IMG/VR virus record: IMGVR_UViG_3300025276_003377
Coordinates: 1-47,043 of that record
Strand: one strand, 5' to 3'
Source of the DNA: a virus
Length of the DNA: 47,043 nucleotides
Shown here: positions 1 through 12,422 of the stretch, one piece after another
How positions within the stretch are numbered: the stretch's first letter is position 1
How the letters are laid out: each line of letters opens with the position of its first letter
Program-made: the position numbers and the translations under genes
The notes under the pieces: model-generated
What the model was told of the DNA's origin: nothing
Database searches by the model: none
What the model saw: only the letters and a program-made list of their open reading frames with translations

Positions 1-525
1 ATAGTTGAGGATGCACTCAAGTGGGATCCAAAACCTGCTGAGGTGTATACCAATAACCCTGCCAACGATGGCGTTAATACAGAAACTAGAAAGGGGACAG
101 TATACAGCTGTCCTAGTAACCTATTATTAAATGCCTGGTGGAAGCCAATGTTGGACCAAGCGTTCATCTACTATCAACGAAAAGAGTATCCCCAAGATAT
201 TGATTGGGGCAATATTGAAATCCAAATGGTTGAGTATTCAGATACCGATGACTTCTTTCAAAAACATTCCGACTCATATTTAAACGAAAGACATTATGGT
301 GGGGATGTACGTAAGCTCAGCATGAGCCTCGAACTCACTAATGCATCATACTACACAGGATGTGCCTTGAGGTTTTATAAAGATGATGGATCTACAGTAC
401 GTACTGATCCTATCCAAGGGGACGCATTCGTATTCCCTTCATGGAAGCAACATGAGGTCACTAAATTAGAATCTGGTATTAGACGAGCATTAGTTGTTTG
501 GTATCACGGACCATTTTGGCGTTGA
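1..525 (+). CDS. 2OG-Fe(II) oxygenase, prolyl 4-hydroxylase-like (5' end cut off)
   Basis: The reading frame is open from the first base, so the true start lies upstream of the window; a GTG at 43 is only an internal candidate. Members of this family use 2-oxoglutarate, O2 and Fe(II) to hydroxylate a substrate. Numbering from the GTG at 43, the iron ligands are visible as H75-S-D77 and a distal H137, with R147 in the place that binds 2-oxoglutarate, followed by the family-typical ending WYHGP. The substrate cannot be told. A second, different member of the family lies at 22931-23509. The -35 box of the next gene overlaps the last codons. Confidence 0.85.
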   Translation: MVEDALKWDPKPAEVYTNNPANDGVNTETRKGTVYSCPSNLLLNAWWKPMLDQAFIYYQRKEYPQDIDWGNIEIQMVEYSDTDDFFQKHSDSYLNERHYGGDVRKLSMSLELTNASYYTGCALRFYKDDGSTVRTDPIQGDAFVFPSWKQHEVTKLESGIRRALVVWYHGPFWR

Positions 526-550
526 CATTTATGTGAGATCCATGTATAAT
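522..550 (+). promoter_or_regulatory. Sigma70-type early promoter of denV
   Basis: TTGACA at 522-527 and TATAAT at 545-550 with a 17-base spacer are perfect consensus boxes. The predicted first transcribed base is about 557, which is the A of the denV start codon, so the mRNA is probably leaderless. Confidence 0.85.
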
Positions 551-556
551 GGACCC

Positions 557-976
557 ATGACCAGAATTAATATTGTACCATCAGAAGAGTTAGCTGACCA
601 GCATTTAGTTGCTGAGTATAGAGAAATGTTCATGGTGGGATCTGCTTTGCAGAGATCTTTGAAGTCTCCTCATTGGGAGAAGAACAAGAAGACCTGGCCA
701 GAGACCTTTACACTTAATAGTGGACACGTTAAGTTCTTTTATAATAAAGGACTGTATCTACATAAGCGTTATGAAGAGTTAGTCTCAGAAATGAAACGCA
801 GAGGTATGAAGCCAAGTCCTGATCGTGTATTTAAACGTGAGCAGTGGCCGGATGAATTATACTTAGATTGGACTCCTACTGAGGCTGAGCAATTGATTGT
901 CAGACAGCGGATCCAAGAACGTATTGATGAGAAACCTGATTGGTATCGCTGGACTAAGCCAGCTTTGCTATCTTAA
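557..976 (+). CDS. denV: Pyrimidine dimer DNA glycosylase / endonuclease V (DenV)
   Basis: This is the homologue of T4 endonuclease V, which removes UV-induced pyrimidine dimers by glycosylase and AP-lyase steps. It has 139 residues, against 138 in T4. The N-terminus MTRIN, the block SELADQHL-type with AEYRE, and the ending DEKPDWYRW follow the T4 protein. The two catalytic residues, Thr2 and Glu23, are in place. Because the family uses the alpha-amino group of Thr2 as nucleophile, translation has to start at ATG 557 and not at an upstream codon such as 542 or 494. That start coincides with the predicted transcription start of a perfect promoter. A short terminator-like hairpin follows at 1000-1022. 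Confidence 0.95.
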   Translation: MTRINIVPSEELADQHLVAEYREMFMVGSALQRSLKSPHWEKNKKTWPETFTLNSGHVKFFYNKGLYLHKRYEELVSEMKRRGMKPSPDRVFKREQWPDELYLDWTPTEAEQLIVRQRIQERIDEKPDWYRWTKPALLS

Positions 977-2513: not shown

Positions 2514-2807
2514 ATGGATATGTTTACTCTGATTAAAGATGTTGGGGCACCTATCGCTGGTGCTTTAGTTATGGGCTTTTTTATCTTCATGGTAATTAAG
2601 CAAATACTTCATGGTGTATTAAAACAAATTGATACCCTTACCATATTTTGTAAATCATTAGAAAGTCGAGCGCGTGCTATGAACAACGATATGATTAAAA
2701 TCGATATGCTTGTGGGTGCATCATTAGGATTAAGACCAGACATAGACAGAATTGCAAGAGCAGAGAATTTTATTGAGGACGGGAAGTTAGACGTCCGTAG
2801 AGATTAA
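2514..2807 (+). CDS. Single-pass membrane protein, first gene of the curli-like cassette
   Basis: This 97-residue protein has a short N-terminus followed by one membrane helix (about residues 12-32, GAPIAGALVMGFFIFMVIK) and a long, probably amphipathic or coiled, cytoplasmic or periplasmic tail. It is a diverged paralogue of the next gene: both begin with about 10 polar residues, a GxPI motif, a helix containing MGxFI, and a tail with MxxxDMI. The layout recalls YvrJ-type or BhlA/holin-like small proteins, but the match is only by layout. The start sits at the predicted +1 of the late promoter. It overlaps the next gene by one base. Confidence 0.75.
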   Translation: MDMFTLIKDVGAPIAGALVMGFFIFMVIKQILHGVLKQIDTLTIFCKSLESRARAMNNDMIKIDMLVGASLGLRPDIDRIARAENFIEDGKLDVRRD

Positions 2808-3097
2808 TGAATAATGTCGCCACACTTATAAACGAGTTTGGTTTCCCAATTGTCATGGCTGTTGGGATGGGCTACTTTATATACTATGTTTGGAGATTCG
2901 TGATCACAGAACTCAATCCCAAACTATCTACCATGCACATGGCATTGATTAAAGTAATTGATCAAATGAGAATGTTGGATCAAGATATGATAAGGTTACA
3001 ACAAAAAGTTAATGTTGTACTGACATATAGAGACCAACAGGCTGTTATTGATGACGCTGCAGAGAAAGAAGCGTTGCAGGAGAAGAGAAAGAAATGA
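2807..3097 (+). CDS. Single-pass membrane protein, paralogue of the previous gene
   Basis: This 96-residue protein has one membrane helix at about residues 12-32 (FGFPIVMAVGMGYFIYYVW) and a charged, coiled-coil-prone tail ending in KEALQEKRKK. It shares the GxPI...MGxFI helix signature and the DQDMIRL tail motif with its neighbour, so the pair probably arose by duplication and may form hetero-oligomers. ATG overlaps the preceding TAA as TAATG, and the end overlaps csgF as ATGA. Roles could be holin-like, or inner-membrane partners of the CsgG/CsgF pore; I cannot choose between these. Confidence 0.75.
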   Translation: MNNVATLINEFGFPIVMAVGMGYFIYYVWRFVITELNPKLSTMHMALIKVIDQMRMLDQDMIRLQQKVNVVLTYRDQQAVIDDAAEKEALQEKRKK

Positions 3098-3624
3098 TAA
3101 GAAAAATTGAAAGTAAATTACACGTTGTAAGACTAATACTATTAGTAGGAGCTGTTACGCTTGGAATTAATTACGCAGCAGCAGATGAGTTAGTACACAA
3201 ATTTAAATCACCTTCGTTCAGTGGTGTAGGTACCAGCTCACATTATTTGACAATTGAGAACCAAGAGAAGATCAGGAGAGACGCCATCAAGGATGACGTC
3301 GAGGCAGCTTTGTTAGCAGCACAGCGTGCTGAAGAGAATACAACACTAGCTAAATTTATGAGAAATTTAGAGTCAAGGATATTTGCTCAGTTATCAAAAC
3401 AGTTGGTTGAACAATTGTTTAGTGGTGAGGGCAGTACCTTTGGATCGTTTATGATTGACGGCAACATGATTACATACGAACAGACAATCTGTAATCCAGC
3501 TTCCATGGCATGTACGGAAGGCGAGGATGTTATTATAATGACTATCGTAGATCCGAATGGTAGCCAGACTGTAATCATCATACCCATTGGTACAGGTACC
3601 TTTGCAGGGACCGACGGTGGTTAA
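3094..3624 (+). CDS. csgF: CsgF-like curli secretion accessory protein
   Basis: CsgF is secreted to the outer surface, plugs into the CsgG pore and couples it to nucleation of curli subunits. This 176-residue protein has an N-terminal signal segment ending near AAADE. Then comes the hallmark FKSPSFSG at the mature N-terminus, the part that enters the CsgG channel (compare F-R-N-P-N-F-G-G in Escherichia coli). A helical middle follows (FMRNLESRIFAQLSKQL), then a C-terminal beta part with VDPNGSQTVIIIP, matching the known order. It is about 40 residues longer than the enteric protein, mainly between the motif and the helix. It is directly upstream of csgG and overlaps it by 8 bases. Confidence 0.85.
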   Translation: MIRKIESKLHVVRLILLVGAVTLGINYAAADELVHKFKSPSFSGVGTSSHYLTIENQEKIRRDAIKDDVEAALLAAQRAEENTTLAKFMRNLESRIFAQLSKQLVEQLFSGEGSTFGSFMIDGNMITYEQTICNPASMACTEGEDVIIMTIVDPNGSQTVIIIPIGTGTFAGTDGG

Positions 3625-4546
3625 AAAGTATCATACAAGTATCATACTTTTTGCTGCTCTGATATCAGGGTGTGCTTCGTTCCCTTCAATGAACGACACA
3701 TGCAATATAAAACCGTCCGGAGTGGATCCGTATTACACAGTAATGCAATCCATCGGAGAATGTATCGAGCCTCCTCAAGTAGTTGAAATGCCAACACATG
3801 AAGAGCTAAAAGGTTTACCAGCACCAGAGAAGCAACCAATAGTTGCTGTGTATTCGTTTCCAGATAAAACTGGACAACGTAAACAAATGGATGGTGCAGC
3901 TTTATTCAGTACAGCAGTGACCCAAGGGGGTGAGACAATGCTCATCGATGCCCTCAAAACTGCTGGCAATGGAACGTGGTTTAGAGTCGTCGAACGAGTC
4001 GGCATAGATCACCTCACGCGTGAGCGTCAGATTGTGAGGACTACAAGAGAGCAATATAACGAGAAAGATAATACAGGACTCGCCCCCTTGCTGTTCGCTG
4101 GAATGGTTTTGGAAGGCGGAATCATTGGCTTTGATACCAATGTTGAGACTGGCGGACACGGTGCTCGTTATCTTGGAATAGGTGCTTCACAGGCCTACCG
4201 AAGAGATATTGTCGTTGTCCATTTGAGAGCAGTTAGCACATTAACTGGTGAAGTGTTATTAAATGTGCAGACATCAAAAACTATATTGCATGTTGCTGAT
4301 GGGTATGATGTCTTTAAGTTCGTCGATATGGATACAAAGCTAGTAGAAATAGAAGACGGCACAACTGAGAATGAGAGTATAACGCGATCTGTTAGATCAT
4401 GTATTGAGCAGGCTGTGTTAGAAATGATATACCAGGGCCACGATAAAGGGTTCTGGGAAATTAAAGAGGGACATCGTCATCCACATCAAGCTAATGGGAC
4501 GAACGATTTACACCCTACAAAAGAGGAAAGAAATGAAAACGAATAA
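3617..4546 (+). CDS. csgG: CsgG-like outer-membrane curli secretion pore (lipoprotein)
   Basis: CsgG forms a nonameric outer-membrane channel that exports curli subunits. GTG 3617 is preferred because AGGGA lies six bases upstream and it gives a short lipoprotein signal (MVKKY, hydrophobic core, lipobox LISGC with Cys19). An in-frame TTG at 3587 is the alternative. Family blocks are clear: LPAPEKQPIVAVY, DKTGQ, FSTAVTQ, the VEGSIIG-like LEGGIIGFDTNVETGG, GARYLGIGA, TGEVL, TSKTIL and the ending DKGFWEIK. In the channel loop before FSTAV, the Phe is kept but the E. coli Tyr51 and Asn55 positions appear replaced (Asp and Leu). A His/Asn-rich tail of about 25 residues extends beyond the usual C-terminus. 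Confidence 0.95.
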   Translation: MVKKYHTSIILFAALISGCASFPSMNDTCNIKPSGVDPYYTVMQSIGECIEPPQVVEMPTHEELKGLPAPEKQPIVAVYSFPDKTGQRKQMDGAALFSTAVTQGGETMLIDALKTAGNGTWFRVVERVGIDHLTRERQIVRTTREQYNEKDNTGLAPLLFAGMVLEGGIIGFDTNVETGGHGARYLGIGASQAYRRDIVVVHLRAVSTLTGEVLLNVQTSKTILHVADGYDVFKFVDMDTKLVEIEDGTTENESITRSVRSCIEQAVLEMIYQGHDKGFWEIKEGHRHPHQANGTNDLHPTKEERNENE

Positions 4547-5261
4547 ACTTATTGCGTTAGCATTTTTATTATGTCCGACTGTATTGTATGCAGTAGGTAC
4601 CACTGACAATGAAATATTGTTGGATCAATCTGGAGACACCTTAACATTAACCATTGACCAAATAGGTTATGGTAACAAGTTAGGTGGAACGATTGCTAGT
4701 GGTGTTGTTGCATCTGATTGGATCTTTACAGGTTCAAATAATACATTCGATATTGACATGATCGGAAACCTTAACCAAATATTTGGTCCTACACTATTAG
4801 ATAGTTCTGACATCGACTTAAAGATGACAGGTAGCTCTAACATATGGGATTGGAATATCGGTTATGGTGGATCAGCAGATAGTTCTGTAGTGGATGTTGC
4901 TATGACTGGAAGCAGTAATACATTTGATCTTGACTGGGCTTATTCAGCTTCAGCTGAAAGATTAGATTTTGATTTAGATATAACAGGCAGCTCAAACGTC
5001 TGGGATATTGATATCGATGCTGATGACGTCACGTTTAACATCGATGTAATTGGGTCATCTAATAATTTTGACATTGATCAGAAAGACGGAGCCTATAACA
5101 GTCTCACTATGGAGTGGATTGGATCTAATGGTGACATTGATATATTCCAACAATCAGGAACATGCCCAACTGGCACAAGTTCTTGTTACGGTTTAATCAA
5201 TGCTGACTTTGATTCTGAAAATGCTACAGTTAATATTAAACAACAAGATACTGCAGACTAG
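4533..5261 (+). CDS. Asp-rich curlin-repeat protein (secreted fibre subunit candidate)
   Basis: ATG 4533 follows GAGGAAAG and gives a 242-residue protein with a signal peptide ending near LYA (residue 20). The mature part carries at least six degenerate repeats of the form GSxNxxDxD, with the glycines at about residues 67, 100, 126, 152, 174 and 197, that is every 22-33 residues, close to the 22-23 of CsgA/CsgB. Unlike classic curlins, many of the ladder positions are Asp rather than Gln/Asn, so the fibre would be strongly acidic. One QIGYGN unit near residue 43 is canonical. A Cys pair (211, 218) near the end could form a disulfide. It overlaps csgG by 14 bases. Confidence 0.8.
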   Translation: MKTNKLIALAFLLCPTVLYAVGTTDNEILLDQSGDTLTLTIDQIGYGNKLGGTIASGVVASDWIFTGSNNTFDIDMIGNLNQIFGPTLLDSSDIDLKMTGSSNIWDWNIGYGGSADSSVVDVAMTGSSNTFDLDWAYSASAERLDFDLDITGSSNVWDIDIDADDVTFNIDVIGSSNNFDIDQKDGAYNSLTMEWIGSNGDIDIFQQSGTCPTGTSSCYGLINADFDSENATVNIKQQDTAD

Positions 5262-6384
5262 TTTTCTATTATTGCTTATTGGAGCGGCGCTACCACTTGG
5301 AGCAGCTCCTGTAAGCGAGATAGGATCTATTGTAGAGCATAAAGGTTCTGGGGGGATCACTCGCGAAGGCGGTGAGCAGCTTCCCACTAACCTTGATGTT
5401 GGCTTGCAGCCCATGGATTTTATTGAGACTGTAAATGGTAGACTGAAAGCAACTTTTGCTGAAGGGTCTGAGCTCTATATGACGGAGCACACGGAAGCGA
5501 CCATAACTAAATATTATTGGGACAAAGATAAGAACGATGGTGAGATAGGAATCAAGTTTGCTCAAGGCACAGCTAGATTCACCACCGGTAGATTAGGATT
5601 AATACCAAAAGAAAACATCTTAATCGAAACAGCCTCAGCCACTATTGCGGTTAGAGGAACAGATTTTACAACTACGGTTGATGAGTTGGGAAGAACATTA
5701 GTAATACTACTCCCAGAAACCGAATGTACTGTTGATGGAGATTGTAGTCCATCAGGTAGGATAATAGTAACGAACGAAGGAGGTTCAGTTACTTTAGACG
5801 AAGCGTACCAGGCTACTATGGTATCAAGTATGAGCACCCCACCAGTACAACCAGTGACAATTAATAATATTAGTGTGGGTATGATAGATAATATGTTTAT
5901 CGTATCACCACCCCAAGAGATTGAACAGGCAGAAGAAGAGAGCGCAAGAAATAATAGAGATTCTGGTACCAGCATTCTTGACTTCACAGATCTCGATACA
6001 GATTATCTAAAAGAAGATTTCTTGGCAGATGATGATTTAGAGTTCACAGAACTTGACATGGACTTATTAGATGTAGACTTCCTACAAGATGTATTAGTAG
6101 CAATTGAAGAAGTAGACATTTTAAAAAGAGGAACAAGACAAGCTCAAGGTGGACAAGAGTTTACAGGAACCTCATTAGGGTTCGATAAGGAGACACAATA
6201 CAATACTTTTCTTGACAAAGGTCTTGGACAGTTAGTATTTTATAGAGATGTCAATGGTGTGATAGGAATAAGAGTATCATTGGGATCAAATACGAGGATA
6301 GAAAGTGAAAATGAAGGTAAGAAAAATATCATTACAGTTGGTGACGGTACTTCTGTTATTATCACCATTAGGCAAGGCGGATAA
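5221..6384 (+). CDS. Secreted FecR-domain protein
   Basis: ATG 5221 gives a 387-residue protein with an N-terminal signal peptide (hydrophobic core LLLLIGAALPLG, cleavage near GAA). Residues from about 30 to 190 match the periplasmic FecR domain: a G-S-I-V-E-H opening, DFIETVNGRLKATFAEGSEL, and TASATIAVRGTDF, the family's most conserved block. The middle is a strongly acidic linker with repeated LDxD/EDF motifs (about 260-300), possibly Ca-binding. The C-terminal 80 residues resemble another beta domain. FecR domains commonly relay signals across the periplasm; here no sigma factor is present, and the nearby partner is a CHASE2 cyclase. It overlaps both neighbours (41 and 80 bases). Confidence 0.85.
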   Translation: MLQLILNNKILQTSFLLLLIGAALPLGAAPVSEIGSIVEHKGSGGITREGGEQLPTNLDVGLQPMDFIETVNGRLKATFAEGSELYMTEHTEATITKYYWDKDKNDGEIGIKFAQGTARFTTGRLGLIPKENILIETASATIAVRGTDFTTTVDELGRTLVILLPETECTVDGDCSPSGRIIVTNEGGSVTLDEAYQATMVSSMSTPPVQPVTINNISVGMIDNMFIVSPPQEIEQAEEESARNNRDSGTSILDFTDLDTDYLKEDFLADDDLEFTELDMDLLDVDFLQDVLVAIEEVDILKRGTRQAQGGQEFTGTSLGFDKETQYNTFLDKGLGQLVFYRDVNGVIGIRVSLGSNTRIESENEGKKNIITVGDGTSVIITIRQGG

Positions 6385-7042
6385 TTTAATTGAGTTGAAG
6401 CAGGGGTCCTATCAGGGACACACTGGCGACGATTTAAATATTGCTATCGTCCAAAAGGGTGCTGATAATAAAATTCAGTGCTACCGAGACAACTCATGCT
6501 GGATGACTGGAGATGACTTCAATCTACATTTAGAACAAGTCAATACTTCTGGTGCAACTAATGTTTTAGAGCTATGGCATTTAGAAGGTGACAACAATAA
6601 CGTCAGATTTGGACAAGGCGTAGCTCTCAGCGGCTCTTCAGATACAACATTCAATTATGACGGCACCGAAGGTGGCGGTCACTATGCAAGACTAGACATT
6701 CACGGTGATGGAAACAATGTTGCTGGATATCAAACAAATCAAGGATCCACAACAGGGCACTATTATGCTCAGCTAATCTTCAGCGACAACAATAACATAT
6801 GGACTGCACAAAAAGGTAACGGTCGTAAGACAATTAATCTCTATACCACATCAGATGGTAATGGCGTATCGATTACACAACAGGGAAACAATGCTGAGCA
6901 CAATGCCAACATTCAACTGAGAGGTAGCTATGGAACAGACTTGTTATTATTACAGCAAGGCACTACCTCACAAAGTTATACTCTACAACAAAACTGCATA
7001 ACTGTAGGCGGATGCTCAGTTAGCATAACACAAGGTGACTAA
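6305..7042 (+). CDS. Second curlin-repeat protein
   Basis: GTG 6305 has GAGG seven bases upstream; ATG 6311 is the alternative and is too far from it. The 245-residue protein has a signal peptide (KISLQLVTVLLLLSPLGKA) and then a chain of curlin-like units. These have the classic Q-x-G-x-x-N look in QKGADN, QKGNG, QQGNN and QQGTT, and N-rich turns in DGNNV, DNNNI and DGNGV, spaced roughly 20-35 residues. Four cysteines sit in two pairs, near residue 60 and at the very end. Together with the Asp-rich protein it could form a major/nucleator pair like CsgA/CsgB. The first 80 bases overlap the FecR gene. Confidence 0.8.
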   Translation: MKMKVRKISLQLVTVLLLLSPLGKADNLIELKQGSYQGHTGDDLNIAIVQKGADNKIQCYRDNSCWMTGDDFNLHLEQVNTSGATNVLELWHLEGDNNNVRFGQGVALSGSSDTTFNYDGTEGGGHYARLDIHGDGNNVAGYQTNQGSTTGHYYAQLIFSDNNNIWTAQKGNGRKTINLYTTSDGNGVSITQQGNNAEHNANIQLRGSYGTDLLLLQQGTTSQSYTLQQNCITVGGCSVSITQGD

Positions 7043-7260
7043 TGCTTAATAGATTTTTAGAATGGAGCTTTCAGAGGAAGGCAGATAAGATACAAAAGAA
7101 AACACTTCAGATAATTAATCTAGCCCCGAGTGAAGATTGGATAGAGACGATTGTAGAGGTTCATCCTATGAGACAAGTATTCTGGATGACTATAGTCCAG
7201 CTTTGTGTCTTTGGATCCATGCTATTGGCTTTCTGGGTTATCCATGCGCTGGTTAACTAG
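7042..7260 (+). CDS. Small single-pass membrane protein
   Basis: I do not recognise this 72-residue protein. A basic, amphipathic N-terminal half (FQRKADKIQKK) is followed by an acidic patch and one clear membrane helix at about residues 47-69 (FWMTIVQLCVFGSMLLAFWV). It starts on TAATG shared with the second curlin gene and overlaps the cyclase gene by 17 bases, so its translation is probably coupled to both. With this position it may be an inner-membrane partner of the CHASE2 cyclase or of FecR, but that is inference from order alone. Confidence 0.7.
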   Translation: MLNRFLEWSFQRKADKIQKKTLQIINLAPSEDWIETIVEVHPMRQVFWMTIVQLCVFGSMLLAFWVIHALVN

Positions 7261-9112
7261 CATATGGACCGTACTGTTTGTGCTAGTCTTAGGACTATCG
7301 CTTAGAGTAACAGATAATGAAACACTGCAACAGCTCAGGTACATGGGCTTCGATGCAAAGATAACATCACTTCCACAAACTAAATCTAATGACGTTGTAA
7401 TACTCAATATTGGAGAAGGGACCTTGGCCAAGGAAGGCCAGTATCCTTTTCCTAGAGGCCACTATGCAAGAATCATAAGTGATCTTATAGAAGCCAACTC
7501 AGGTGTAGCTGGTTTTACTATAATGTTTCCAGAACCAGATCGGTTCAATCAAGATAACGTATTTGCATCATGGGCTGGTGAACCAAGTGCTGTTGTTCTT
7601 GCTCAGAAAAGTTCAAACAAAGGTAGGTCACAGGAAGCTAGACGCGAAAATATTATTACTAGTGGCAATGGTGATCCATTAAACTGGGTTGATGAGTATG
7701 CAGGTATTGTTTCTAACATTCCTGAACTAGATCAGGCAGCAAGAGGTGTCGGTATGGTAAATGTCACACCATCATCAGACGGGTTGGTAAGAAAGATACC
7801 GCTCGTGGTTCAATCAGGCGGTAAAGCATACTCGAGTTTCCCTATCGAAGTGATAAGATCCATAACAAGTACCAAGGGGTACACTATAAAGGTAGATAAG
7901 GACCTTGGAATTGATTCACTATACATTCATCCAAGAGAGTTTAAGACCGAGCGCGATGGTTCAATATGGGTAATGTGGGATAAGACGTTTGATGAGTATG
8001 AGTGGGGAGTGGATCCACTCCCAAACTTAAATGGTAAGACTGTTATAATTGGTCTGACGGCTGAGGGTCTGGCAAATCCAGTTCCAACTGCCCATGGTCC
8101 TGTATATCCTCACCATCTTCAGGCCGCAGTCGTACAAACGCTTTTAAATCAGAGTTATAGTACCGAGTTGAATATGGTGACCCGCCCATGGTGGACGGAT
8201 GCTGCGGAGTTGGGAATAGCTCTCCTTGGTGGGGTCCTTCTAATAGCTGCTGTTTACTACTTTCCTCTGCTGCTTGCCACTTGCGTCGTTGTAGCATCTG
8301 CTGCCTTCTCCTACTTTGCTGCCGAATACGCATGGACTTCTTCAATGGTGCTCCTTGATTGGACTTTTGTAACAATATTATATATTATACTTGCTCTCCA
8401 CACATATGGCAACAACTTTTACATCCAATACAAGCTGAGAGAGCAGATCAAAGGTCAATTTGGAACGTATCTGTCACCTGACATGGTCGATATGCTGGCA
8501 AAGGACCCAACACTACTAAAATTGGGCGGTGAGAGACGTGAAATGTCCTTTTTATTCATGGACATTGTTGGATTCACGCCCATATCAGAATATTTTAAGA
8601 ATCAAGACGACCCCGAAGGGCTTGTTGAGCTTGTAAATGAGTTTTTGAACGAAATGACGTTGATTATTCTTGCAAATGGTGGTACAATAGACAAATATAT
8701 GGGCGATTGCATCATGGCGTTCTGGAATGCACCTTTAGATTGCGAAAATCACGCTGAAATGGCCGTACTATCGGCGATACAGATAGAAGTTAAGACTGCG
8801 GAGCTTAAAGAATTGTACAAAGAGAGGGGATTACCGGATATTAACGTGGGCACTGGAGTCAATACCGGCACATGCATCGTAGGGAACATGGGATCAGAGA
8901 CTAGATTCGATTATTCTGTTATAGGTGATGCGGTAAACTTGGCAGCTAGGCTAGAAGCAAAAGCAGCTCGACACGAACTTATAGATTACAAAACAGTCAT
9001 CTCTAGTATGACTGCTGACCAACTTCCTGATACTTTTAAGTTGAAAGAGATAGGCGACATAAACGTCAAAGGAAAGGTTGATGTGATAAAGATATTCTCA
9101 CCACGTCTTTAA
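7244..9112 (+). CDS. CHASE2-domain class III adenylate cyclase (membrane sensor)
   Basis: The enzyme should make cAMP from ATP in the cytoplasm under control of a periplasmic sensor domain. The 622-residue protein has one N-terminal helix (about 4-22), then a CHASE2 domain (about 25-300) with DVVILNIGEGTL, PFPRGHYA and MFPEPDR. Next come about three closely packed membrane helices (320-395), and a cyclase domain from about 425. Metal-binding Asp440 and Asp488, adenine-binding Lys484 (DKYMGD) and transition-state Asn565 and Arg569 (NLAAR) are all present, so it should be active; Lys484 favours ATP over GTP. ATG 7244 lies inside the previous ORF. FecR plus CHASE2 cyclase pairs occur in bacteria, but I know of none described in a phage. 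Confidence 0.9.
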   Translation: MRWLTSIWTVLFVLVLGLSLRVTDNETLQQLRYMGFDAKITSLPQTKSNDVVILNIGEGTLAKEGQYPFPRGHYARIISDLIEANSGVAGFTIMFPEPDRFNQDNVFASWAGEPSAVVLAQKSSNKGRSQEARRENIITSGNGDPLNWVDEYAGIVSNIPELDQAARGVGMVNVTPSSDGLVRKIPLVVQSGGKAYSSFPIEVIRSITSTKGYTIKVDKDLGIDSLYIHPREFKTERDGSIWVMWDKTFDEYEWGVDPLPNLNGKTVIIGLTAEGLANPVPTAHGPVYPHHLQAAVVQTLLNQSYSTELNMVTRPWWTDAAELGIALLGGVLLIAAVYYFPLLLATCVVVASAAFSYFAAEYAWTSSMVLLDWTFVTILYIILALHTYGNNFYIQYKLREQIKGQFGTYLSPDMVDMLAKDPTLLKLGGERREMSFLFMDIVGFTPISEYFKNQDDPEGLVELVNEFLNEMTLIILANGGTIDKYMGDCIMAFWNAPLDCENHAEMAVLSAIQIEVKTAELKELYKERGLPDINVGTGVNTGTCIVGNMGSETRFDYSVIGDAVNLAARLEAKAARHELIDYKTVISSMTADQLPDTFKLKEIGDINVKGKVDVIKIFSPRL

Positions 9113-9119
9113 ATTACTG

Positions 9120-9148
9120 TTGACTTTAAACCTAATTTCATGTATAAT
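9120..9148 (+). promoter_or_regulatory. Early promoter of the metabolic operon
   Basis: TTGACT (9120-9125), 17 bases, TATAAT (9143-9148), preceded by G. It drives the operon that begins at 9173; a short leader carries AAGGA at about 9162-9166. Confidence 0.85.
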
Positions 9149-9172: not shown

Positions 9173-9769
9173 ATGAAAAAATTAAACAAAGTTATTATTA
9201 CCGACATCGATGGCGTAGTCCTCAATTGGGAAGATGCTTTTATTACTTGGATGGAACATAAGGGCCATAAAAGAGTAGAAGGATCCCAGTTTGTATACAA
9301 TGCTGGCGTGCAGTTCGGTATGTCAAGGGAAGAAGGACATAGAATGGTTGAGATATTTAACCAATCAGCTGTCATAGGCTTCCTACCACCACTAAGAGAC
9401 GCTCAGCACTACATCAAGAGATTAGCTGAAGAACATGGATATAGATTCATTGCTCTTACATCATTATCAACAGATAAGTATGCCAAGCAATTGAGGCAGA
9501 AAAATCTAGAAAAGCTCTTTGGCGAAATCTGGGACGACGTTATATGTCTACCTACAGGTGCCGACAAAGACGAATCATTAACACTCTTGTCTCACATACA
9601 TCCTGGTTCATACTGGATAGAAGATAAGATAACAAATATTGAATCTGGCCTCAAGGTTGGGTTCCCTGGAATCCTAATGGAGCATGGTTACAATATGGGT
9701 GGTAGAGAAGATGATAGATTCTTCACTGCTACTAATTGGGAAGAGATCTATAATTACGTCACTCAATAA
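9173..9769 (+). CDS. HAD-superfamily phosphatase / nucleotidase-like
   Basis: This 198-residue protein starts with the HAD nucleophile motif, D11-I-D13-G, in TDIDGVV. Motif II is the threonine or serine in ALTSLS, and the acidic motif near the end is in WIEDKITN. The enzyme family removes phosphate from small molecules or nucleotides, and relatives in phages are often annotated as 5'-nucleotidase-like, which would fit nucleotide recycling from host DNA. The substrate cannot be read from the sequence. It is the first gene of the early operon, with the start 25 bases after the -10 box and an AAGGA ribosome binding site. Confidence 0.8.
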   Translation: MKKLNKVIITDIDGVVLNWEDAFITWMEHKGHKRVEGSQFVYNAGVQFGMSREEGHRMVEIFNQSAVIGFLPPLRDAQHYIKRLAEEHGYRFIALTSLSTDKYAKQLRQKNLEKLFGEIWDDVICLPTGADKDESLTLLSHIHPGSYWIEDKITNIESGLKVGFPGILMEHGYNMGGREDDRFFTATNWEEIYNYVTQ

Positions 9770-9778
9770 GGACCGAAG

Positions 9779-10267
9779 ATGTTATTACTTGCCGTTAATG
9801 GAACTAAGGGTGGTAAGCTACCGAATGGACTTACTACTAAACTAGAACAAGCAGCATATTTTTATGCTAAGAAATTAAAGATGTCTGAGGAAGACTCTTT
9901 TATTGAAATTAAGGTTCCTCGTAAGAGGGGCTTTATTGATGGGTGTATAGGAGGACTATGCAGTGCGGCTGATGAAGAGCACGAAGCAGGTTACGAATAT
10001 ATGCACATTGTAATTGATCTTGCTAATGTAACAATTAGTGAGATGTTGAGAAACCTGGCTCATGAAATGGTCCATGCTAAGCAATACCTAAAAGGTGAGC
10101 TTTGTGTAGATGTACAATCATGGAAAGGGGTTCGATTCAAATCCAAGTTGGGCGTTGATTATGATGTCAATGCACCATGGGAAAAAGAAGCGTACAGGAG
10201 AGAGACTCTTCTATACAAAAAGCTATTAGATCATTATGGAGAAAATTATGGCAGAAGCAGAAAATAA
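9779..10267 (+). CDS. SprT-like zinc metallopeptidase
   Basis: The HExxH zinc motif is H95-E-M-V-H99, inside NLAHEMVHAKQY, and the third ligand is probably the Glu in PWEKEAY near residue 139. The family includes SprT/Spartan proteases that act on DNA-bound or cross-linked proteins, and short stand-alone domains are frequent in phages. At 162 residues it is about one domain long. It follows the HAD gene by nine bases with AAGGACCGAAG as ribosome binding site, and its end overlaps the next gene by 20 bases. Confidence 0.8.
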   Translation: MLLLAVNGTKGGKLPNGLTTKLEQAAYFYAKKLKMSEEDSFIEIKVPRKRGFIDGCIGGLCSAADEEHEAGYEYMHIVIDLANVTISEMLRNLAHEMVHAKQYLKGELCVDVQSWKGVRFKSKLGVDYDVNAPWEKEAYRRETLLYKKLLDHYGENYGRSRK

Positions 10268-10481
10268 ATTCGCTCATGTAGACAAAGCAGTCTTTGCATT
10301 AGCGTCAGCGTTGGATTCAACGTTAAGAGTTCAATCTCAAATCTTTGCATTTGAAGACTTAGATGAAGACTATCTAAACAATTGGTTACAGAAAGAGAAA
10401 GATCCAGTACTCGGTACTGTGATTGCTCAGCTGTTAGGTTTGAGGGAGATACAACCTGAGGGCGAAGCTGATGCCGGTTAA
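10248..10481 (+). CDS. Hypothetical small protein
   Basis: I do not recognise this 77-residue protein. ATG 10248 (MAEAENKF) is preferred over ATG 10236 because GGAGAAAA lies just before it. The sequence is acidic and mostly helical (ALASALDSTL, NNWLQKEK), without membrane helices or cysteines. It sits between a SprT protease and a peroxiredoxin and overlaps both, so it is certainly transcribed with them. Confidence 0.6.
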   Translation: MAEAENKFAHVDKAVFALASALDSTLRVQSQIFAFEDLDEDYLNNWLQKEKDPVLGTVIAQLLGLREIQPEGEADAG

Positions 10482-10992
10482 TGATGGAGAAAGAATGCCT
10501 GACTTCAGGTATTTTGATAGAGTAGCGGGAGCCTTCACTCAGAAGATCCTTCGCAACGAGGCTAAGGAAGGAAGGATAGTTCTATTTGGATTACCTGGTG
10601 CCTTTACGCCAACTTGTTCTACCGAACAGCTTCCAAAGTTTGAAGAACTGTATGATGACTTAACAACATATGTCGATGATGTATTTTGTACTTCTATCAA
10701 CGACCCATTTGTAATGAATGCTTGGTTTGATAGTTTAGATATTAAGAAAGTCAAATCTCTCCCTGATGGAAATGGGGATCTTGCTCAATCACTTAAAATG
10801 TTTGTTGCTAAACGCAATCTAAACTTTGGCCATCGTTCATGGAGATATGCAATGATCGTCAATACAAAAGATAAGTATATTGAAAAAGTCTTCTGTGAAG
10901 AAGGGTATGGGGATAACTGTGAAAGTGATCCATATGAAATATCAAAGCCTGAGAATGTTTTAGCATGGCTAAAATCGAAAGCAGGGCAATGA
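10471..10992 (+). CDS. Peroxiredoxin, Prx5 (AhpE/hybrid Prx5) type
   Basis: The enzyme reduces hydrogen peroxide or organic peroxides with a peroxidatic cysteine. The active-site block is GLPGAFTPTCS with Cys49 and Thr46, followed by the family's SINDPFVMNAW and a conserved Arg in SWRYAMIV. It has 173 residues, the normal length for Prx5. In the same operon there is a glutaredoxin (13414-13677), which could recycle the oxidised cysteine, since many Prx5 enzymes use glutaredoxin. A phage peroxiredoxin would protect the infected cell from oxidative damage. Start ATG 10471 overlaps the previous stop by 11 bases. Confidence 0.9.
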   Translation: MPVNDGERMPDFRYFDRVAGAFTQKILRNEAKEGRIVLFGLPGAFTPTCSTEQLPKFEELYDDLTTYVDDVFCTSINDPFVMNAWFDSLDIKKVKSLPDGNGDLAQSLKMFVAKRNLNFGHRSWRYAMIVNTKDKYIEKVFCEEGYGDNCESDPYEISKPENVLAWLKSKAGQ

Positions 10993-11432
10993 GAAACCTG
11001 ACCTGGAGCCAGGTCGATGAGCTGACTACGCAAGTAGCGGCACACCTTAGTTATGATGCTCCAGACTGTATAGTCGGACTAGCTCGCGGTGGGCTAATTC
11101 CGGCTGTACGCCTTTCTCACGTGTTGGGAGTGCCTATGGAGTGCATTAACATGAGCTTACGTGATTCAAAGGTGTCAGGGAGCTTAGAATTGTTTAAAGC
11201 TCAGTTAGATAACTTAGATAAATATAAGAACATTGCTATAGTAGACGATATATGTGACAGCGGTAAGACCTATCATGTACTTGATATACACTTACAAGAT
11301 CGAGGTCACCGAAACATCCAATGGTGTGCTCTTCTATCTAAAACTACTTCAATGTTTACGCCAACGATAGTTGGGGAAGAAATAAAAGAAATAAACAACT
11401 CAGAATGGGTTGTCTTTCCTTGGGAGGAATAA
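10989..11432 (+). CDS. Phosphoribosyltransferase (xanthine-guanine type fold)
   Basis: The PRPP-binding loop, IAIVDDICDSGKT (about residues 82-94), is a clear type I phosphoribosyltransferase motif. The N-terminal CIVGLARGGLIPA is the second substrate-facing loop seen in Gpt and HPRT-like enzymes. With 147 residues it is close to the Gpt length (152). Its role would be purine salvage, or transfer of ribose-5-phosphate to another base. ATG 10989 overlaps the peroxiredoxin stop as ATGA and has GCAGGGC just upstream; the longer in-frame ATG at 10965 lies in the previous gene and lacks a ribosome binding site. Confidence 0.85.
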   Translation: MRNLTWSQVDELTTQVAAHLSYDAPDCIVGLARGGLIPAVRLSHVLGVPMECINMSLRDSKVSGSLELFKAQLDNLDKYKNIAIVDDICDSGKTYHVLDIHLQDRGHRNIQWCALLSKTTSMFTPTIVGEEIKEINNSEWVVFPWEE

Positions 11433-11594
11433 ATGGATTATATTAAAAAACTTATGAAAGAAAGAACGTCTTGGGACGGTAGTATTATTATTGCAGTCTG
11501 TGGATCAGTAATTCTGCTTGGTGGTTTAGCTAAGGTAGTGGCATGGGCCGGATTAGCGTATGGTATTTACACACTGCTAAAGAGTGAGTCATAA
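11433..11594 (+). CDS. Small two-helix membrane protein
   Basis: This 53-residue ORF follows the previous stop directly, with GGGAGGAATAA as ribosome binding site. A positively charged N-terminus (DYIKKLMKERTSWDG) is followed by two hydrophobic stretches, at about 17-32 and 35-49, rich in Gly and Ala. Similar small ORFs recur in marine T4-like phages as I recall, but no function is known to me. With the next small membrane gene (12419-12628), it flanks the Coq4-like gene, so it could help anchor a membrane-associated activity. Confidence 0.65.
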   Translation: MDYIKKLMKERTSWDGSIIIAVCGSVILLGGLAKVVAWAGLAYGIYTLLKSES

Positions 11595-11609
11595 TCTAGG
11601 AGATTAACA

Positions 11610-12422
11610 ATGTGGAACCCAATAAAGATATACAAGTATTCTAAAAACATTCTAGCTAGAGGCCGTACCAATCATTACGATCAGTCTGACGACACTACGA
11701 ATGATATTGTTTCGCTTTATGGGGAGATGCTGTTTCCGTCTGTATTCTTGTCAGGGCATATTCTAAGAAAGACAGCTGAAGGACGTAATATCCTTTTCGG
11801 TCTCGAGGATAAGTCGGAAGAGCATCAACTTAGTGTATACATTCCAAAAATTACCGATGGTGAATATTTAGATTCACTAGCACCTAATACAGTCGGTGCT
11901 CATTACAAACATTTGATCAATCAATGGTCATTTGAAGAACTGTATAACTCAAGATTTACAAGCATGCCAAAAGATACGTTCGTGCAGAAACGTAGAGCCA
12001 ATGTTGCTCGTCATATCTTTTTAAGTCATGACTTCTGGCACGTATTGTTTAGATATGATACATCACCGCTAGGTGAGGCTTGCATACAAGCTGTAACATC
12101 ACAATATCTGAAATTTACTGGGCCATGGTATATGTCATACCTAATAGCATTCAAAGAAAGACAAATAACAGGTTCGTGGAAAGCATTTAATGTTATTCGT
12201 GAAGCTCATCGAATAGGTAAACAGGCTCACAGAGCTGTATACGATGCTAATTTTGATACACTATTAGAAATGGACATAGAAGAAGTACGCGCACAATTTA
12301 ATGTCGGTGTACCAACAGCGTTCTACGATTATGCTAAAGAGTTTCCAAAAGACTTTAGGTATGATTGCATTCATCCAGAATATAATGATACACAGGTTGA
12401 ATATACAGAGGCAACAATATGA
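11610..12422 (+). CDS. Coq4-like protein (ubiquinone biosynthesis family)
   Basis: Coq4 works in ubiquinone synthesis, on the benzoquinone ring, bound to a metal and to the membrane. The family signature H-D-x2-H-x11-E is complete: His140, Asp141, His144 and Glu156, in a block reading HDFWHVL then LGE. Total length (270) is in the Coq4 range, and the protein is likely monotopic, like Coq4. The region before the motif is the helical part, and KERQ with an N-x-x-R-x-AHR block follows. I have not seen a phage Coq4 described. Whether it acts on host quinone synthesis or on another substrate cannot be decided. Start ATG 11610 has CTAGGAG upstream. Confidence 0.75.
   Translation: MWNPIKIYKYSKNILARGRTNHYDQSDDTTNDIVSLYGEMLFPSVFLSGHILRKTAEGRNILFGLEDKSEEHQLSVYIPKITDGEYLDSLAPNTVGAHYKHLINQWSFEELYNSRFTSMPKDTFVQKRRANVARHIFLSHDFWHVLFRYDTSPLGEACIQAVTSQYLKFTGPWYMSYLIAFKERQITGSWKAFNVIREAHRIGKQAHRAVYDANFDTLLEMDIEEVRAQFNVGVPTAFYDYAKEFPKDFRYDCIHPEYNDTQVEYTEATI

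Follow-up and report, generated by a model that had tools for sequence, protein, structure and literature searches.

A predicted curli-like export cassette with a FecR-domain protein and a CHASE2 adenylate cyclase in T4-like marine phages, and a candidate sister operon in bacteria

The stretch of DNA analysed here, referred to as the window, is a 47 kb virus record of IMG/VR (IMGVR_UViG_3300025276_003377, positions 1 to 47,043), which encodes T4-like tail and baseplate proteins at 27-46 kb. Near its left end nine open reading frames (ORFs) on one strand (2514-9112, +) form a gene cassette whose predicted products include a curli-type outer-membrane pore (CsgG and CsgF), two curlin-like subunits, a periplasmic FecR-domain protein and a CHASE2 adenylate cyclase with an intact-looking active site, led by two short one-helix proteins (S1 and S2) behind a conserved T4-type late promoter element. 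We tentatively read this, with a little less than even confidence, as a type VIII export cassette of T4-like marine phages that would form curli-like fibres and in which the FecR protein would report to the cyclase. The gene order is kept in ~100 phage loci, and an operon of the same order and domain architecture lies in three bacterial assemblies, with cyclases that are sister to those of the phages.

CsgF, CsgG and companion genes have been reported in pelagimyophages (Zaragoza-Solas et al. 2020, PMC7029224), and the full set of HK(s), CsgF, CsgG, CsgA/B, FecR, CsgA/B and adenylate cyclase has been listed for podo- and myo-type pelagiphages, with metatranscriptomic evidence of expression (Wittmers et al. 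2022, PMC9599517). The view in the original prediction that the full set was undescribed therefore falls, and the window cassette, which agrees with that set in genes and order, adds one more phage to those with this known system. The present computations differ from those descriptions in placing two short one-helix proteins without a kinase domain at the 'HK' position, in reading FecR as a secreted protein with a curlin-like end, and in identifying the conserved promoter, a bacterial sister operon and, from the predicted active site, a class IIIb-type cyclase.

Results

Organization of the cassette

The cassette comprises the following features.

2501-2508, + strand: T4-type late promoter element TATAAATA, 13 nt ahead of the first ATG
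2514-2807, + strand: S1, one-helix protein of 97 aa (phrog_18771)
2807-3097, + strand: S2, one-helix protein of 96 aa, homologous to S1
3094-3624, + strand: CsgF (PF10614, E 2.3e-11, exceeding the curated cut-off)
3617-4546, + strand: CsgG outer-membrane pore lipoprotein (PF03783, E 2.1e-50)
4533-5261, + strand: curlin-like protein 1, with signal peptide (profile match to 8c50, E 0.0024)
5221-6384, + strand: FecR-domain protein (PF04773, E 9.6e-9; structure model, fold match and C-terminal motif)
6311-7042, + strand: curlin-like protein 2, with signal peptide (family recovered with curlin-1; C-terminal motif)
7042-7260, + strand: small membrane protein of 72 aa, in a variable slot
7244-9112, + strand: CHASE2 adenylate cyclase, predicted class IIIb-type active site (PF05226, E 8.9e-32; PF00211, class III cyclase, E 6.6e-19)

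These nine genes bear out, at the level of predicted domains, the operon originally proposed as one late unit. Junction overlaps of 1-80 bases had been noted, which is correct for the longest ORFs (curlin-1 from 4494, FecR from 5200, curlin-2 from 6305 and the cyclase from 7205), but the likelier starts (ATG at 4533, 5221, 6311 and 7244 respectively) shorten most of them; the FecR/curlin-2 overlap is still ~74 nt. For CsgG the longest ORF begins at TTG 3587, and the likelier start at GTG 3617 gives a signal peptide and lipobox. PHROGs families exist for S1/S2, CsgF, CsgG, FecR and the cyclase, all annotated as of unknown function.

CsgF, CsgG and putative curlin repeats are shared with the canonical alphaproteobacterial and E. 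coli curli systems, E. coli having CsgE, CsgC and CsgD in addition. The reported absence of CsgE was confirmed, there being no PF10627 match in the window, in the complete genomes of phages HTVC008M and Melnitz, or in the genomes of the three bacteria that have the sister operon; the E. coli control was detected. The gap between curlin-2 and the cyclase (7042-7260 in the window) is in many loci a variable slot with differing small ORFs of ~50-190 aa, and since its contents vary the 72 aa protein was rejected as a core part.

A conserved late promoter

Of 89 distinct phage loci, 51 have the element TATAAATA in the ~70 nt that precede S1, where chance would give ~0.0085 per stretch; ahead of internal cassette genes it is nearly absent. 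Its spacing from the start codon is exactly 13 nt in 36 of those 51 loci, and likewise in the window. The T4-type late promoter originally placed at 2501 is thus conserved. A sigma-70-like promoter is present at 9120-9148, ahead of the gene that follows the cassette. No terminator was found past the cyclase gene. In the geometry of T4 late promoters a 13 nt spacing places the RNA start at the ATG, so that transcription would begin at the first codon of S1, and the exact spacing suggests leaderless late mRNAs in these phages. The same 13 nt is the commonest distance from the element to an ORF over all loci (63 of 171 sites with a following ORF).

Conservation among phages

Conservation was counted over 159 loci from two scans of viral contigs. 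The complete order S-S-CsgF-CsgG-curlin-FecR-curlin-cyclase is present in 82 of them, most of the others being cut by contig ends, and a few loci lack the second curlin or have split genes; with the second curlin optional, the order is kept in ~100 loci and in the complete isolates HTVC008M and Melnitz. A tblastn search of 50,697 phage records identified HTVC008M and four Melnitz isolates as encoding relatives of CsgG, FecR and the cyclase. Pelagibacter phage HTVC008M (KC465899) has the window's order between replication and baseplate genes, with FecR and the second curlin annotated as hypothetical, and its FecR, cyclase and CsgG are ~35-47% identical to those of the window over the matched parts. 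Methylophilales phage Melnitz (EXVC044M, MZ577097; PMC9004378), a member of the Kyanoviridae, also has the full order, including curlin-like genes, which its description states to be lacking (Buchholz et al. 2022, PMC9004378).

That the window is an assembly chimaera, a bacterial cassette fused to a phage contig, is refuted by these complete isolates and the many independent viral contigs with the cassette, and we give it practically no credence. A similar operon does occur in bacteria, but the GC content of the cassette matches that of the window (0.409 against 0.394 in the remainder) and a phage late promoter precedes it.

Several loci depart from the common pattern in size or arrangement. 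Three viral contigs with the cassette (L354, L339 and L353) measure 340, 251 and 217 kb, well above the 141-147 kb of the isolates. In a 16.9 kb record (L379) the S pair is followed by a methyltransferase-like gene, the cyclase is on the other strand and a CsgG gene with an internal TAG lies elsewhere, so that the cassette is either rearranged or decaying, or misassembled. At three cyclase loci the fetched stretch shows no further cassette gene; one of these has just 0.8 kb upstream, and the whole records of the other two, of 8 kb and 22.8 kb, gave no CsgG match. A 1.5 kb unverified 'Salmonella phage' record (L004, OR851715), whose CsgG groups among bacterial sequences, is probably bacterial contamination.

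A sister operon in bacteria

A scan of genome contigs with the phage CsgG alignment gave 80 loci. At three of these, two from Caulobacteraceae metagenome-assembled genomes (MAGs; L170 and L171) and one on a 705 kb contig of Hyphomonas sp. TMED17 (L173), the order is CsgF-CsgG-curlin(s)-FecR-cyclase. The order and domain architecture are those of the window, but the S pair is absent and the flanks are chromosomal, encoding TonB receptors, acyl-CoA dehydrogenase, acetyl-CoA hydrolase and FAA hydrolase. If borne out, the operon would contradict the published statement that FecR and cyclase genes are not within bacterial type VIII secretion operons, on which these three cases, all MAGs, bear. It is rare: at the 62 other bacterial CsgG loci, neither FecR nor a CHASE2 cyclase occurs within the sequence fetched, up to 10 kb on each side, and beyond these genomes no full-length FecR match was found in samples of ~400 genomes of the order, 350 of a family and 385 of the class.

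S-family genes occur at thirteen of the 80 loci, which appear to be phage contigs that were placed in MAG bins; two others without a detected S gene (L178, cut at its end, and L179) group with phages in the CsgG tree. L179 contains the cassette start, with no S gene detected in 4.7 kb upstream. The bins in which such phage-like contigs apparently lie (L164-L169, L172, L174-L176, L178-L181 and L191) are those of Bacteroidota, Planctomycetota, Cyanobacteriota and others.

In the cyclase tree the cyclases of the bacterial operons are sister to all phage cyclases with support of 96/96, in a tree that includes one wrongly chosen outgroup ORF (L307, branch length 10). The CsgG tree nests the bacterial operons inside the phages, with a phage clade not rejected (p-AU 0.213). 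Transfer of the cassette from phage to bacterium was rejected, because a phage clade is compatible with the CsgG tree at that value and the cyclase tree gives a sister relationship. The bacterial cyclases have a C-terminal extension that is found in only two phage-type cyclases.

The leading pair S1 and S2

S1 and S2 are homologous proteins of ~95 aa, each with one N-terminal hydrophobic helix followed by a polar helix. They are probably the leading 'HK' of the pelagiphage description, as judged from position and from the remark there that it is short (Wittmers et al. 2022, PMC9599517). A histidine kinase was rejected, given the length and the lack of a match to a dimerisation/His-box or ATP-binding domain; none of 33 members matched a kinase family at E 0.1.

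The pair keeps close company with the pore genes. A search with the S alignment returned 80 loci. CsgF accompanies the pair at 77 of them; two of the others stop at a contig edge, and the last is rearranged, its CsgG lying elsewhere on the contig. A holin looks unlikely as well: the match to a holin family (phrog_4898, E 5e-4) is weak and covers 23 residues only, and no occurrence of the pair apart from the curli cassette was seen.

Curlin-like proteins and the FecR-domain protein

A profile built from 15 phage homologues of the curlin-like proteins matches the solved curlin-repeat protein 8c50 (E 0.0024), and the AlphaFold model is rich in strands. The FecR protein is laid out as a signal peptide, a FecR/PupR-like domain, an acidic linker and a C-terminal strand domain with a curlin-like end. 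Its structure model (mean predicted local distance difference test score, pLDDT, 71) consists of a signal-peptide helix, a beta domain, a disordered acidic linker and the C-terminal strand domain, and the modelled beta domain has as its best match in the Protein Data Bank (PDB) the signalling domain of PupR (6ovk, probability 1.00, E 2.8e-3). No anti-sigma domain is present, the N-terminus being a signal peptide and Pfam matching the FecR domain only, and no sigma factor is encoded in the cassette. An iron-responsive anti-sigma regulator was rejected for want of the anti-sigma domain.

The FecR protein and both curlins end in a shared motif, [VIFLT]x[VIL]xQ, found in 90 of 91 FecR proteins, 93 of 94 curlin-1 and 76 of 88 curlin-2 sequences. 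The other cassette proteins all lack it, and 36 of 1723 other ORFs (2%) have it. The motif was defined post hoc from alignments of related, non-independent sequences, and the counts are descriptive. In a profile comparison the FecR tail meets curlin-2 with the ends in register (E 6.5e-4, probability only 27.5) and controls score worse. The low probability led us to reject a true curlin domain, and we accordingly speak of a shared end motif in FecR and the curlins and not of homology.

The CHASE2 cyclase and candidate cAMP receptors

As originally predicted, the window cyclase appears to have all of its catalytic residues when aligned with its relatives: behind the CHASE2 domain are the two metal-binding aspartates, the substrate lysine, and the transition-state asparagine and arginine. 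D453 and D501 (metal-binding), K497 (substrate) and R582 do not vary in any of the 106 cyclases aligned. Position 571 at the substrate site is Ser in 102, Thr in two and Asp in two, the window having S571. In class IIIb cyclases Thr or Ser replaces the substrate-specifying Asp, and by this residue the window enzyme is predicted to be of class IIIb type. Melnitz has a different version of the catalytic domain; this and a second cyclase of the type (L003 11607-13658 and L174 6672-8708) have Asp at the substrate site, Ser in place of the Asn, and a C-terminal extension resembling that of the bacterial operon cyclases.

FecR and the CHASE2 cyclase remain neighbours in the phages and in the bacterial operon. 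Among 30 CHASE2 proteins sampled in one bacterial order a FecR ORF adjoins five, one being the cassette itself and one weak. The originally suggested link from envelope state to cyclic AMP (cAMP) is plausible in view of this kept neighbourhood.

A cyclic nucleotide monophosphate (cNMP)-binding domain is absent from 36 of 41 Pelagibacter-genus genomes, some of which may be incomplete as drafts. In the other five the match falls within one 870-codon frame, which in the two read by eye (L280 and L281) looks like a fusion of cNMP-binding domains with acyltransferase-like and SGNH-like parts and not like a CRP. In a Pelagibacter host, signalling by way of a CRP-type receptor would seem unlikely. 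The bacteria with the sister operon have several cNMP-binding proteins, some of them CRP-sized.

Genes flanking the cassette

The neighbouring genes in the window (43-976 and 9173-12422) encode a 2OG-Fe(II) oxygenase, a pyrimidine dimer glycosylase, an NT5C-like nucleotidase, a redoxin, a phosphoribosyltransferase and a Coq4-like protein.

Discussion

Under the export reading, the cassette would have been acquired whole from an operon of alphaproteobacterial type in which FecR and the CHASE2 cyclase were already present. Late in infection a single transcript would start at TATAAATA; CsgG and CsgF would, by homology, build an outer-membrane pore, and the two curlin-like proteins would cross the inner membrane by their signal peptides, leave through the pore and cover the infected cell with fibres or a coat. 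Homology makes both the export and the formation of fibres likely. The FecR protein may remain periplasmic and serve as a gauge, with the curlin-like strands of its C-terminus touching curlins in transit and its PupR-like domain touching the CHASE2 domain so as to set cAMP output, with S1 and S2 as phage-specific inner-membrane accessories. The phage might gain by aggregation of sibling cells or by a block on competing phages. The more specific form of this proposal, in which FecR is a fibre gauge that reads curlin export and reports it as cAMP through a class IIIb-type cyclase, in an alphaproteobacterial operon captured whole to which phages added a two-protein inner-membrane accessory, is rather unlikely to hold in every part. 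We know of no described curli system with such signalling.

Several observations count against the export reading. Pfam scores the curlins below threshold (curlin-1 E 0.15, curlin-2 none), and a Foldseek search with the AlphaFold curlin model gave no significant PDB match. A cassette that lacks CsgE leaves the gating of the pore unexplained, and Melnitz infections showed no clumping in the culture conditions used (PMC9004378). On the two phage contigs of 8 kb and 22.8 kb a cyclase is present, but CsgG was not found on the fragment. The two complete phages, HTVC008M and Melnitz, encode no cNMP-binding domain, and no CRP-type cAMP receptor was found in the 41 Pelagibacter-genus genomes. Finally, the CsgG and FecR trees do not settle where the bacterial operons belong.

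Some of these points have been, or could be, read in favour of other functions. A lysis-timing pore (Buchholz et al. 2022), in which CsgG and CsgF, alone or together with S1/S2, form a gated pore or pinholin and no curlin fibres are exported, would suit the late promoter, the missing CsgE gate, the one-helix S1 and S2 with their short holin-family match, and the unclumped Melnitz cultures. It was proposed, however, on the assumption that curlins were absent, and curlin-like genes adjoin CsgG in nearly all loci and in Melnitz; an outer-membrane pore is moreover no holin, and the operon without S1/S2 occurs on bacterial chromosomes, where lysis would be senseless. We regard it as distinctly unlikely. 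Less probable still is an uptake pore, with CsgG admitting nutrients or siderophores under iron regulation by FecR (Zaragoza-Solas et al. 2020; Wittmers et al. 2022): the FecR domain and the missing CsgE gate would fit, but this FecR has a signal peptide and neither an anti-sigma domain nor a sigma factor beside it, and CsgF and two curlins would be of no use for uptake.

The cyclase could instead be a passenger that acts on its own, using cAMP to change the physiology of the host or of competitors, and merely travels with the curli genes, as might be argued from the two phage contigs with a cyclase and no CsgG on the fragment, and from the different catalytic version behind the same CHASE2 arrangement in Melnitz and L174. 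Yet it is always last in the same order, in ~100 loci and in the bacterial operon, FecR genes adjoin CHASE2 cyclases elsewhere, and the lack of a CRP-type receptor match in the 41 Pelagibacter-genus genomes speaks against it too. This leaves the passenger explanation unlikely, though ahead of either of the other two.

Ocean phages that infect very abundant bacteria commonly carry this cassette. Reading S1 and S2 as one-helix proteins would take a kinase out of published models of the system, and the C-terminal motif shared by FecR and the curlins provides a concrete hypothesis for how fibre export may be sensed. The sister operon, so far seen in MAGs only, would be a curli system with a built-in cAMP output that could be studied outside infection.

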